Source of the DNA: Thauera sp.
GTDB lineage: Bacteria > Pseudomonadota > Gammaproteobacteria > Burkholderiales > Rhodocyclaceae
DNA length: 64,000 bases
NCBI GenBank assembly: GCA_017302295.1
Contig: JAFLDS010000007.1
Location: 124,001 to 188,000, forward strand
Direction: 5' to 3'
Part shown: piece by piece, positions 30,024 through 33,454 of the stretch
Layout of the letters: each line of letters opens with the position of its first letter
Position numbering within the stretch: the first letter of the stretch is position 1
Translations under genes and position numbers: made by a program
The notes under the pieces: generated by a model
Seen by the model: the letters and a program-made list of their open reading frames with translations, nothing else
Databases searched by the model: none
Told to the model about the DNA's origin: nothing

Positions 30024-30060
30024 GGCTTCCCGGTGGCGGGCACGGTCGCGCAATACCGGT

Positions 30061-30157
30061 GTGCGCGCCGGTCCCATCCTCCGGCTTGTATCGGCTGCCT
30101 CGGAATCCCTACCGCCGGTCGCAGGGCACGTCCCTACCGGTTTCGCGCGGCGCGCAC
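30061..30157 (-). repeat. Dispersed element, copy 1 (minus orientation)
   Basis: 97 bp with perfect 10-bp terminal inverted repeats GTGCGCGCCG / CGGCGCGCAC. Read on the minus strand, the interior starts CGCGAAACCGGTAGGGACG and contains two internal hairpins. About 35 bp of weaker similarity continues beyond the 5' stem. It lies between the broken HTH gene and higBA. Confidence 0.8.
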
Positions 30158-30240
30158 GGCTGAAGCATAGTCCGGCGGCGCATCCAGATCGACCGCGCCT
30201 TACCGCTTTCTACCCAGGGGTGGTGGATCTTTACTGACGC

Positions 30241-30270
30241 TTGCAGATACTAACGATGATCGTTACTATC
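30241..30270 (+). promoter_or_regulatory. higBA promoter with embedded palindromic operator
   Basis: TTGCAG (30241-30246) and TACTAT (30264-30269) are spaced by 17 bp. Between and over them lies a 25-bp near-perfect palindrome (30246-30270) with arms TAACGAT/ATCGTTA around a central G and outer GATA/TATC. Its position over the promoter, just before higB, fits autorepression by HigA. Confidence 0.75.
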
Positions 30271-30274
30271 AATC

Positions 30275-30556
30275 ATGATTCATTCGTTCGGTGACAAGGA
30301 CGCAGCGGCCATCTTCGCCGGCTTTCAAGTCCGCCGTTTGCCTGTCGAGATCCAGTCCGTTGCGCGACGCAAGTTGAAGCAGATCGATGCCGCGACCCAG
30401 CTCGATTCATTGCGGATTCCGCCCGGCAACCGGCTCGAGGCGCTGCGCGGCAATCGCGGCGGGTGCCATTCGATCCGGATCAACGATCAATGGCGCATCG
30501 TTTTCCGCTGGAATGACGGACAAGCGCTCGACGTGGTGATCGTCGATTACCACTGA
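30275..30556 (+). CDS. higB: HigB/RelE-type toxin
   Basis: 93 residues. LPVEIQSVARRKLKQIDAA, LRIPPGNRLEALRGNRGG and the C-terminal HSIRINDQWRIVFRW match HigB proteins of the plasmid-maintenance killer type. These are ribosome-dependent mRNA interferases. The gene order toxin-then-antitoxin is the usual higBA order. The start ATG lies just after the operator palindrome. Confidence 0.93.
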   Translation: MIHSFGDKDAAAIFAGFQVRRLPVEIQSVARRKLKQIDAATQLDSLRIPPGNRLEALRGNRGGCHSIRINDQWRIVFRWNDGQALDVVIVDYH

Positions 30557-30570
30557 CCTGGAGAAGATCA

Positions 30571-31050
30571 ATGACCATCGATCGCAACGACATACCCGGC
30601 CTCGACCTGTCGGACGTGAGCACGGGCGAGCACCTGCCCGCCGTCTCCCCGGGTGAAGTACTGCTGCACGACTTCATCGAACCGCTGGGCATCACCCGCT
30701 ATCGGCTGGCGAAGGCAATCAGCGTGCCGCAGCGGCGCATCGACGAAATCTGCATGGGCACGCGCGGCATCACGGCCGACACGGCACTGCGCCTTGGGCG
30801 CTTCTTCGGCATGGAGGCGGCTTTCTGGCTGAATCTGCAAAACCAATACGATCTTGAAGCCGCTGCAGCCGAACTCGGGGCCCGGCTCGACGCCGAGGTT
30901 GCGCCGCTGTCGTCCACCGGGGAATCGCGGTACGTCCGGTACGCCTCGTCCCGGTCTGGCGAGCCCTTGATCGCCGCCGAGCCGGGGAACGACGATCGGC
31001 CGCAGAACGCTCGCGCCGTCGCGGCCGTCGCAACTCGAAACCCCCGCTGA
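30571..31050 (+). CDS. higA: HigA-type antitoxin with an aberrant C-terminal tail
   Basis: 159 residues. Residues 20-115 are a standard HigA Xre-type helix-turn-helix: PGEVLLHDFIEPLGITRYRL, AKAISVPQRRIDEICMG and AAFWLNLQNQYDLE. Typical HigA ends near residue 105-115. Here about 45 low-complexity residues follow (beginning SSTGESRYVRY) and the frame ends where upstream sequence conserved with another dispersed-element copy begins. The tail may be a readthrough product of rearrangement and need not destroy antitoxin activity. Confidence 0.9.
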   Translation: MTIDRNDIPGLDLSDVSTGEHLPAVSPGEVLLHDFIEPLGITRYRLAKAISVPQRRIDEICMGTRGITADTALRLGRFFGMEAAFWLNLQNQYDLEAAAAELGARLDAEVAPLSSTGESRYVRYASSRSGEPLIAAEPGNDDRPQNARAVAAVATRNPR

Positions 31051-31082
31051 CATCGCGGCGCCGCTCGGCCTAAACTGCGAAC

Positions 31083-31184
31083 GGTGAGCGCGGTGCGAAA
31101 CCGGTAGGGACGCGCCCCTGTGACCGACGGTAGCGACTCTTAGGCAGCCGATCAAAGCCGAAGTGTTGACAAGCCGCGCTCACC
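31083..31184 (+). repeat. Dispersed element, copy 2
   Basis: 102 bp with an 11-bp terminal inverted repeat containing GTGAGCGCGG / CCGCGCTCAC. The interior shares GCGAAACCGGTAGGGACG with copies 1 and 4. Similarity to copy 3 continues about 40 bp upstream, starting at the higA stop codon. It lies between higA and the DUF1345 gene. Confidence 0.82.
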
Positions 31185-31278
31185 CATCGACGTCGCGACG
31201 GCGGGTGCCGGTCCCTGCCTGCTCGGGGGAAAGCCGGCGCTTGACCGGCAGCAGGCTTCGCTCATCGACAGGACCGCC

Positions 31279-31977
31279 ATGCCTCACCCCGTCTCCCATC
31301 CCCTGCACGGCCTGCACTGGTCGGTGCGGCTGAGCGCGCTGCAGCGGCAGGGCCTGGCGCTCGGCGCCGCGGGGTTCGCCATGCTGGCGGTCACCCGCGG
31401 CACGCTGCCCCGCGATGAGCTTCCCTGGCTGGTCGGCTGGCTGGCCTACAGCGGCATGTACTTCGGCATCACCTGGCACTGGATCGCCGGCCTGGACGCG
31501 CAGGCGACGCGACGCCGCGCGCAGTGGATCGACCCCGGGGCGGCGGCGCTGTTCGTGTTCGCCACCGTCGCGGCCTGCGCGAGCGTGATCGCCGTGGCGC
31601 AGGCGGTCGGCACCAGCCGCGCGTTGCTCGGGATGGCCCGCTGGGGCTACCTCGCACTGTCGATGGCATCGCTGGCGTCGGCCTGGCTGCTGCTGCAGAC
31701 GGTATTCGCGCTGCACTACGCGCACGTCTACTACGGCCTGCGCGACGAGGAACACGAACCCCGCCGCGGCCTGCTCTTCCCCGGCGGCAGCGAGCCGGAC
31801 TACCTGGACTTCCTCTACTTCTCGCTCGTCATCGGCATGACGTCGCAGGTTTCGGACGTGGCCGTCGCCAACCGGCATCTGCGGCGGCTGACGCTGACGC
31901 ACGGCGTGCTGTCCTTCGCTTTCAACCTCGTCGTGCTGGCCATCGCGGTGAATGTGTTCGCCGGCAGCCTCGCCTGA
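31279..31977 (+). CDS. DUF1345 family integral membrane protein
   Basis: 232 residues with about five or six helices. LLQTVFALHYAHVYYGL and the diagnostic EPDYLDFLYFSLVIGMTSQV, with SDVAVANRHLRRLTL following, are hallmarks of DUF1345. Function is unknown; a channel-like role is sometimes suggested because the tail resembles potassium-channel-like small proteins. The ATG at 31279 begins MPHPVSHPLHGLHW. Copies of the dispersed element lie on both sides. Confidence 0.8.
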   Translation: MPHPVSHPLHGLHWSVRLSALQRQGLALGAAGFAMLAVTRGTLPRDELPWLVGWLAYSGMYFGITWHWIAGLDAQATRRRAQWIDPGAAALFVFATVAACASVIAVAQAVGTSRALLGMARWGYLALSMASLASAWLLLQTVFALHYAHVYYGLRDEEHEPRRGLLFPGGSEPDYLDFLYFSLVIGMTSQVSDVAVANRHLRRLTLTHGVLSFAFNLVVLAIAVNVFAGSLA

Positions 31978-32335: not shown

Positions 32336-32348
32336 GAGGAGACCCCGA

Positions 32349-32522
32349 GTGAGCGAGCAGTTCGATCTGATCGTCATCGGCGCCGGTTCCGGCGGTGTGG
32401 CGGCGTCGCGGCGGGCCGCGGTGCATGGCGCGCGCGTGCTGATCGCCGAGGCCGACCGCGTGGGCGGCACCTGCGTGATCCGCGGCTGCGTGCCCAAGAA
32501 GCTGATGATGTACGCCGCCGGG
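32349..32522 (+). pseudogene. 5' fragment of a glutathione reductase gene
   Basis: The first 58 codons (GTG start) duplicate the 5' end of the intact gor at 34646: from 32361 the two differ at only three bases over about 160. The FAD-binding GAGSGG and redox-active GGTCVIRGC motifs are present, then similarity stops abruptly at 32522. Eleven bases later the 3' end of a toxin gene lies on the other strand. It cannot make a functional enzyme. Confidence 0.88.
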
Positions 32523-32532
32523 CAATCGCCGG

Positions 32533-32817
32533 TTAGCCTGGAAACTTGCGAGCCGCGTGCACCACGTTCAGCACGACGACGCCATCCGCTGAGACTCTCA
32601 GGAAGACAACGTAGGGCAGACGCCGAACCACGAGCTCGAGCGCGCCGGGCACGCGGTCGCTGGCGCGGATTCGCTCAGGGAATGCTCGCAGGGCTTCGAC
32701 CTCCGCGACGATCCTGAGCTGAACCGCGGCAGCGGTGGCCGGGCCCGCCTGGAGGTGGTAGTAGGCGAGAATTTCCTCGAGGTCGTCGAGTGCCTCTTCG
32801 GTCCAGACGATCCGCAT
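32533..32817 (-). CDS. ParE/RelE-superfamily toxin
   Basis: 94 residues: [20 protein letters not shown] at the N-terminus and [20 protein letters not shown] near the end match the ParE/RelE fold. Toxins of this type act on ribosomes or gyrase; which is not determinable here. It overlaps nothing and follows the Phd-like antitoxin by two bases. The stop is 11 bp from the breakpoint of the glutathione reductase fragment. Confidence 0.87.
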
Positions 32818-32819
32818 TC

Positions 32820-33134
32820 CTATGCGGTCTTGCCGGCCGTTCGGGCGCGGAGCCGTTCACGCAACAGCGCCATCGCATCGTCGTGGCCGTGAACGCGGGC
32901 CTCCCCGGAATCGACCCGCGCAAGCGTGGCCGACACCTTTGCGAAAAGCCAACCGTCGTAGCCGGGGTCCTTGTCGAGCAGGAACTCCGGTAGCAGCGTA
33001 TCGGCCGCGTCCTCGATGGAGATCATGATCCCGACGGGACGGTCGTTCCTGGTCACGACGACAGGCTCCCGACGCGCGGCATCGAGAAACTCGCCGAACC
33101 GGTTCTTGGCGTCGCGCGCCGACATGACTTTCAT
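32820..33134 (-). CDS. Phd/YefM-type antitoxin
   Basis: 104 residues. MSARDAKNRFGEFLDAARRE and PVVVTRNDRPVGIMISIED are the N-terminal DNA-binding fold of Phd/YefM antitoxins. The C-terminal half should wrap the toxin. The ATG at 33134 (MKVMSARD) has GAGGGG at the right spacing; an ATG two codons upstream is also in frame. It is the partner of the downstream ParE/RelE-like toxin. Confidence 0.85.
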   Translation of the reverse strand: MKVMSARDAKNRFGEFLDAARREPVVVTRNDRPVGIMISIEDAADTLLPEFLLDKDPGYDGWLFAKVSATLARVDSGEARVHGHDDAMALLRERLRARTAGKTA

Positions 33135-33223
33135 GACCATTCCCCTCGGGCGTGTTCAATGATGTCCATTGTAGCCACTTTGGACATCTCGGAGACGCCG
33201 GCGACACCGCGCAGACATCCTGC

Positions 33224-33304
33224 GTCGTCGTGCCGCACATGCCCGGCGTTTTCCCTGCGGGCGACACCCGCGACGAGGCCATCGCAAACGCACGCGAGGC
33301 CATC
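33224..33304 (+). pseudogene. HicB antitoxin fragment
   Basis: 27 codons read VVVPHMPGVFPAGDTRDE and then AIANAREAI, closely matching residues 19-45 of the intact hicB at 29280. There is no start or rest of the gene. The fragment ends 15 bp before a copy of the dispersed element. Confidence 0.8.
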
Positions 33305-33319
33305 GGCTACACTGAATTC

Positions 33320-33419
33320 GTGAGCGCGGCGCGAAACCGGTAGGGACGCGCCCCTGTGACCGACGGTAGCGACGCCGAGGCAGCCGACAAATGCCGGAGT
33401 GTTGACAAGCCGCGCTCAC
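33320..33419 (+). repeat. Dispersed element, copy 4
   Basis: 100 bp with 11-bp perfect terminal inverted repeats GTGAGCGCGGC / GCCGCGCTCAC. The interior is nearly identical to copy 2. It is followed after 35 bp by the 3' end of the TIR-type gene. Confidence 0.82.
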
Positions 33420-33454
33420 CCTTCGGCTCGGGCACCTGGCCGTTGGCGCCCTGC

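Follow-up and report, generated by a model that had tools for sequence, protein, structure and literature searches.

Element E is a sequence of ~100 nt that occurs four times in a 64,000-nt stretch of Thauera sp. DNA (assembly GCA_017302295.1, contig JAFLDS010000007.1, positions 124,001 to 188,000; hereafter the window), and comparison of its copies with relatives in other bacteria and in phages indicates that it is probably a non-coding RNA gene. Judged from sequence, a recurrent home of this element is the junction between genes F and G of Mu-like phages, where E lies on the strand opposite to both genes and next to a gene F (MuF head protein) that ends in a PBECR2 domain. Based on these comparisons and on analogy to known systems, we favor, with modest confidence, the proposal that E is the RNA antitoxin or immunity partner of this phage MuF-PBECR2 nuclease and that the chromosomal copies are orphan immunity RNAs. 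E belongs to a family without an entry in Rfam.

The four copies are located at 30061-30157 on the minus strand (E3, subtype B; 72.8 bits with covariance model R1, and 99.2 bits with model R2, which was built from E3 among others) and, on the plus strand, at 31084-31183 (E1, subtype A, with an extra outer G-C pair at 31083/31184), 32070-32167 (E2, subtype B) and 33320-33419 (E4, subtype A). An earlier note made from the sequence of the window had reported four dispersed copies of ~100 nt at these places, and a blastn search of the organism's own 4.1-Mb genome with one E copy returned exactly four matches at an E-value ≤0.001 (8.6e-48 to 6e-11). The letters of the terminal stem were also as claimed, since two copies use GTGAGCGCGG/CCGCGCTCAC and two use GTGCGCGCCG/CGGCGCGCAC, and the subtypes differ by paired changes at pair 4-97 (A-T to C-G) and pair 9-92 (G-C to C-G). 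Because subtypes A and B also differ by 2 nt in length, no reading frame survives in E (coding potential was judged by eye).

The prediction that the copies share a covarying three-way-junction fold that is selected as a structure was borne out by covariation and parsimony in an alignment of 21 distinct full copies, from which a truncated copy (L024:3310), two indel-bearing copies at locus L137 and duplicates had been dropped. From these 21 copies RNAalifold produced, unprompted, a three-way junction that consists of an 11-bp closing stem (P1) plus the hairpins P2 (CGGT/ACCG around GGG/CCC) and P3. With the structure given as input, 93.6% of 546 cells are standard pairs and 9 of the 26 pairs have changed on both sides, giving a covariation score of 0.243, compared to 0.099 +/- 0.010 in 500 shuffles (0 of 500 reached it) and 0.017-0.083 when the structure was slid. 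By parsimony, P1 and P3 contain 17 pair-keeping double changes with a tree from unpaired columns, or 12 with a tree from all columns, versus 0-1 in slid controls. The two inner hairpins of the earlier note both emerge from RNAalifold on the 21 copies, although not every minimum-energy fold of a single copy contains them. Because P2 shows no double changes among the 21 copies and its pair 18-44 is mismatched in 10 of them, support for this hairpin had to await a homologue at locus L348, in another phage, that is 44-55% identical to other E copies (44.3 bits, E-value 2e-6) and forms every one of the 26 pairs, those of P2 among them, by way of new letters in P1 as well as P2. When L348 was added, in an alignment fitted to the model, double changes were present at 19 of the 26 pairs. 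Folding energy alone is unremarkable, z lying between -1.5 and -3.0 in the window's four copies, and the reverse strand of the whole F-G gap at loci L139 and L140 has a folding-energy z of about +1 (mononucleotide shuffles).

A transcript of E is suggested by a -10-like hexamer, mostly TAnnCT, that is found 4-7 nt before P1 in 20 of the 21 copies (p≤0.018 for each of the 20, versus 500 random positions of its own locus), while the -10 and -35 boxes jointly reach p≤0.05 in 18 of the 21; the matrix frequencies used are approximations, and the per-copy values are not independent tests because the copies share ancestry. In the window, the promoter-like stretches of E1 (31047-31076, plus strand; CTGACA, 18 nt, TAAACT; joint p<0.002) and E2 (32033-32062, plus strand; CTGACA, 18 nt, TAGACT; joint p=0.002) contain both boxes. 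The -10-like box of E3 (TATGCT, 30164-30169, minus strand) lies 6 nt before the stem (p=0.006 versus 500 random positions), and that of E4 (TACACT, 33308-33313, plus strand; p=0.006) is accompanied by a weak -35. On the promoter strand, P1 and P3 contain 26 G-U cells versus 5 A-C cells, an excess which argues that the promoter's strand is the RNA. The promoter-like box and the G-U bias both fit a transcript and make a non-coding RNA, one of several possibilities raised in the earlier note, the probable one. That note contained neither the promoter-like box nor the Mu-like phage home and adjoining PBECR2, the latter two not being visible in the window.

Relatives of E were identified by a pattern scan of species genomes and IMG/VR, followed by a covariance model built from the copies, as the earlier note had suggested; the model recovered members in family genomes and phage contigs. 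The scan of species genomes returned 101 stretches, with E in 11 of these loci, and that of IMG/VR returned 4, with E in 3; all 101 stretches were checked for one further motif and 18 with the covariance model, so a divergent E could be missed. Members are found in Thauera, Aromatoleum, Parazoarcus, Burkholderiaceae, other proteobacterial metagenome-assembled genomes and phage contigs, but the distribution is sparse, as model R1 detected E in 7 of 297 family genomes sampled and in only the own genome among 399 order genomes and likewise among 369 class genomes, and model R2 in only the own genome among 349 phylum genomes. By blastn, one E copy had no match in plasmids and phages and matched 13 of 199 family genomes, 9 of them only by short matches (E-value 1.5e-4 or worse) that are not model hits. 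A copy at L072:4687-4784, outside the window, is chimeric, with a 5' half of subtype A, a 3' half of subtype B and two broken P1 pairs, and is a recombinant. Rfam 15 contains no E family, and only a tRNA reaches a gathering score in the whole window; at an E-value ≤10, positions 29900-33600 gave two matches that are far under gathering (19.7 of 55 bits, overlapping E1, and 16.7 of 56 bits). A tRNA or tRNA-like reading of E was rejected, as none of the E copies in the window is called a tRNA by ARAGORN, whose only call there is a tRNA-Ser (GGA) at 59709-59799.

At six Mu-like phage loci with intact genes (L061, L069, L113, L029, L123 and L140), E occupies the interval that separates F from G and is encoded on the other strand, and the L348 homologue is placed likewise. 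Pfam identifies gene F of L061 as PF04233 plus PF18810 (PBECR2) and its gene G as Phage_tail_S (PF05069); the identity of F and G at the other E phage loci rests on likeness to L061. A local hidden Markov model (HMM) finds PBECR2 at the C-terminus of gene F in all six intact loci and in L348, and PBECR2 fragments at L044 (21.5 bits) and L125 (14.9 bits), where E is whole beside decayed F/G remnants; it finds none in the window. In the E-carrying genomes, PF18810 was matched in one of nine, which is not the own genome, in a search that gave no positive among 14 control genomes, and a search of the own genome for a gene-G relative, made without a positive control, gave no match. No open reading frame (ORF) of ≥60 aa that could encode a small immunity protein is found between F and G in L061, L069, L113 or L029, and the small ORFs between the PBECR2-bearing gene F and E in L123 (8137-8830) and L124 (3147-3896) are possible cases of protein immunity beside the RNA. 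In a partial survey of the literature, with most subscription journals outside its scope, no paper was recognised as describing an RNA at the F-G junction, and passages of a strand-specific RNA-seq study of a B3-like phage name none at this site (PMC9936078).

The link between PBECR2 and an RNA-sized gap was assessed at gene-G loci of IMG/VR, which were the best 80 matches of each query; 236 were collected, of which 153 were distinct, extended far enough upstream and had a gene-F call. Since an E phage supplied the first query, and since the alignment queries A8 and A9 consisted mainly of loci already known to contain an insert, insert frequencies are biased by this choice, the strand and PBECR2 contrasts less so. 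The F-G gap is ≤30 nt at 62 loci, 31-69 nt at 5, 70-180 nt at 48 and >180 nt at 38, where sorting was automatic and some gene-G starts are uncertain (52 versus 48 gapped loci in two counts). PBECR2 is present in 30 of the 48 gene Fs with a 70-180 nt gap (among them L139, L140 and L348) versus 6 of the 62 with a gap ≤30 nt (p=6.9e-9), and in 2/5 and 1/38 of those with gaps of 31-69 nt and >180 nt, respectively. A Pfam scan gave 31/50 (the 48 gapped loci plus L159 and L319) versus 6/62, and the contrast persisted when one locus was kept per gene-G cluster (24/40 versus 2/41, median p 5e-8; 22/34 versus 2/35 at a score ratio of 0.6, median p=1.6e-7; 15/25 versus 1/22 with coarser clusters, median p 5e-5).

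Within these loci, the toxin domain and the RNA tend to change together, as far as sequence distances can tell. For example, the gene F products of L061 (RNA subtype B) and L113 (subtype A) are 87% identical before the domain and 64% identical in the last 110 residues, a region in which the subtype A phages L113, L069 and L123 are 70-78% identical. RNA distance follows toxin-domain distance given gene-G distance, with a small partial Mantel correlation (r=0.155, p=0.002) across 45 of 50 loci; the test omitted L160, L163, L182, L202 and L226, where the gap is not RNA-gene-like. In addition, L172 and L179 have a similar RNA and a similar toxin next to distant gene Gs.

The proposal that E is an immunity RNA would combine these features as follows. 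PBECR is a predicted RNase which, when fused to MuF, is likely packaged and injected, and MuF toxin genes of temperate phages often have a small ORF of putative immunity function behind them, according to passages of two earlier studies (PMC5512222; PMC5576092). The E RNA may be made in the lysogen and would bind or decoy the MuF-PBECR2 RNase as its antitoxin or immunity partner, modeled on the small immunity proteins thought to act in other MuF toxins and on the RNA in type III toxin-antitoxin systems. The four chromosomal copies, two per stem subtype, would be orphan immunity RNAs, either remnants of such phages or acquired from them, that have been retained among toxin-antitoxin and defense genes in an island where they could protect the cell from the nuclease of infecting phages.

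The F-G gap of other phages contains further inserts, among them tRNA-like ones. A TATANT box is found ≤60 nt upstream on the strand opposite gene G at 31 of 154 loci, versus 6 on the strand of G, while control stretches gave 0-6. The T-arm motif GGTTCRANNCC is present ≤180 nt upstream on this opposite strand at 10 of 154 loci, six of which had prompted the test, versus 0 on the strand of G and 0-3 in controls (L143, L159, L176, L192, L201, L218, L303, L307, L309 and L365). With relaxed settings, ARAGORN places tRNA-like folds on the opposite strand in L143, L159, L176, L192, L218 and L155 (the last one probably a chance call) and on the strand of G in L147, among 23 regions; with default settings it calls L192 only, of 60 loci. 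All ten T-arm loci are without PBECR2, and 7 of the 8 that were scanned have a MuF_C match (E-values 4.5e-6 to 0.1, all under the Pfam cut-off). In L208 and L214, a different insert accompanies weak PBECR3 matches. Other groups of similar RNA-sized inserts (L145/L150/L152/L154; L147/L148/L156/L172/L179/L187; L183/L228/L235; L157/L294; L208/L214) often have TATACT-like boxes and terminator-like hairpins. The inserts are not detectably E, since among the gene-G loci given to models R2 and R3 nothing new scored better than an E-value of 0.2. Eighteen phage gene-G loci had no Rfam match at an E-value ≤1. In a wider and more tentative proposal, which we put forward as possible, the F-G junction is a toxin/RNA-immunity slot in which each virion-borne MuF nuclease domain is paired with a dedicated opposite-strand structured RNA: E for one PBECR2 group, RNAs of other families for additional PBECR2 and for PBECR3 domains, and tRNA-like RNAs for MuF_C, with bacteria keeping orphan copies as RNA immunity arrays.

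Several observations weigh against assigning E to the PBECR2 nuclease. Subtype B does not correspond to one toxin clade, as L061 and L140, both of this subtype, are only 60% identical in the domain, and RNA distance tracks gene-G distance as well when toxin distance is controlled for (partial r=0.121, p=0.0015, likewise a small correlation). The loci share ancestry, and at the coarsest clustering (21 clusters) the PBECR2 contrast is 4/6 versus 1/8 and not significant (median p=0.09). PBECR2 is carried by 6 of 62 gap-less gene Fs that have no RNA-sized gap, and it is lacking in 18 of 48 gapped gene Fs, some of which have weak PBECR3 or MuF_C matches. E is also found away from F-G, near a Mor gene in L067, near a terminase in L073, in surroundings that are phage-type by ORF reading in L131, and in L096, L130 and the Thauera islands, the chromosomal stretches being the window, L024, L072, L137, L096 and L130. 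The L130 copy is without a -10 box, and no U-tract follows the stem in the 21 copies. Finally, a confident AlphaFold model of the PBECR2 domain (predicted local distance difference test score, pLDDT, of 90) matched no solved structure at an E-value ≤0.001 with Foldseek, so it is the Pfam family and the prediction of its authors that support the name RNase.

Among other explanations, the most serious, if unlikely, is that E encodes a lysogeny-expressed regulatory RNA, or moron, at a favored insertion site, with no functional tie to the nuclease domain, whose targets would be mRNAs of the host or the phage, or else a host RNA-binding protein. The promoter-like box suits such a gene, several unlike RNA-sized inserts occupy the F-G gap, and morons are known to occur at the borders of gene G, with anti-CRISPR genes that have their own promoter on its other side (passages of PMC4704812); the PBECR2 association and the joint change of toxin domain and RNA weigh against it. 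It is improbable that E is instead a cis-acting device that, with a promoter and an RNA directed opposite to gene F, reduces F expression in the lysogen by interference or antisense pairing, the chromosomal copies being debris. The orientation of E, the adjacency of its promoter-like box to the start of gene G and the missing U-tract would agree with this, but fold and internal sequence are conserved where gene F is not adjoining (the window, L024 and L096), which antisense would not need, and several other F-G inserts end, by eye, in terminator-like hairpins before F.

The earlier note had also considered a mobile repeat, and we find it very unlikely that E is a REP/MITE-like element (repetitive extragenic palindrome or miniature inverted-repeat transposable element) or a recombination site, in either case one that must fold as single-stranded DNA to be transposed or to exchange cassettes. 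The clustering of 3-4 copies at gene borders, the inverted ends, and a ParE/Phd, hicB-fragment and E module whose location in the window differs from that in Thauera sp. 2A1 could be read in this way, but homologous recombination between copies can explain the reshuffling, the G-U bias and promoter-like box fit a transcript, and the phage site is constant across diverged F and G genes. Movement by a REP-associated tyrosine transposase found no support, as the own genome has few copies and no Y1_Tnp match, and any such match occurs in 4 of 9 E-carrying genomes and in 5 of 14 control genomes. An integron-type site is countered by the absence of the attC boxes (RYYYAAC...GTTRRRY) from the ends of all 21 copies, with one internal GTTRRRY in L029. 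RNA anti-CRISPRs (Racrs) of phages exist (PMC10651486), and E resembles them as a phage-borne small RNA at a moron site; that it mimics CRISPR repeats is nevertheless extremely improbable, because only three of the nine genomes with E have a full-length Cas1 match (a further 4 have partial ones, E-value about 1e-8) and no repeat in the arrays of those three exceeds the top value of 200 shuffles in its match to E, with some reaching the shuffled 95% level.

The copies in the window are located at gene-module borders, in agreement with the earlier note, their neighbors being toxin-antitoxin genes, hicB pieces and a duplicated reductase start. Between E3 and E1 there is a module (30275-31050, plus strand) of a HigB-like toxin (30275-30556) and a helix-turn-helix protein that is its probable antitoxin (30571-31050); a DUF1345 membrane protein (31279-31977, plus strand) separates E1 from E2, and a ParE toxin/Phd-YefM antitoxin module (32533-33140, minus strand), which has another location in Thauera sp. 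2A1, lies ahead of E4. The island is flanked by a type IIG restriction-modification enzyme (25441-29013, plus strand) and a TIR-domain protein (33455-34564, minus strand; TIR-TM in PADLOC). The 5' end of a pyridine nucleotide-disulphide oxidoreductase gene occurs twice (32337-32522 and 34634-34819, 95% identical) and encloses an insert of ParE/Phd, hicB-fragment, E4 and TIR; hicB is present once whole and as pieces adjoining E3 and E4 (29305-29412, 33198-33305, 30031-30051), and an HVO_A0114-type gene at 29745-30023 appears cut short ahead of E3. In Thauera sp. 2A1, the ParE/Phd, hicB-fragment and E module sits between HigBA and DUF1345, and its left end truncates an E copy, whereas in the window it sits behind the duplicated reductase start, a rearrangement that can be explained by ordinary homologous recombination between E copies. 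Orphan immunity would explain why intact, covarying copies are found in an island with toxin-antitoxin modules, a TIR protein and a type IIG enzyme.

If the wider proposal is correct, there would be a class of phage-delivered polymorphic toxins that is guarded by RNA rather than by protein immunity, which suggests how lysogens are protected when no immunity ORF follows their MuF toxin, and bacteria would keep orphan RNA antidotes in a defense island. It would also hint at the targets of PBECR and MuF-C domains in Mu-like phages, since tRNA-like partners point to tRNA, and make a two-gene toxin/RNA system readily available for tests.

In type III toxin-antitoxin systems such as ToxIN, the RNA partner of an endoribonuclease is encoded as tandem repeats upstream of the toxin and on the same strand. 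E would share with these systems an RNA partner of a predicted endoribonuclease, but it is a single unit without tandem repeats, lies behind the toxin on the opposite strand, and is linked to a toxin that is part of a virion head protein. It shares with Racrs its carriage by phages as a small RNA, and it is unlike the CRISPR repeats of the three E-carrying genomes that were compared. With the PBECR proteins it shares a gene F that ends in PBECR2; MuF-C of phage Mu is itself called a PBECR domain in that paper, the passages of which name no RNA partner and the text of which contains no occurrence of 'noncoding RNA' (PMC5512222). The E phages also resemble the MuF polymorphic toxins of temperate phages, as described in passages of PMC5576092, in that both have a MuF N-terminal domain, a variable C-terminal toxin domain (in the E phages PF04233 plus PF18810 in L061, and a PBECR2 HMM match in six intact F genes) and an immunity-like item directly behind, which is a small immunity ORF in those toxins and an opposite-strand structured RNA gene in the E phages.

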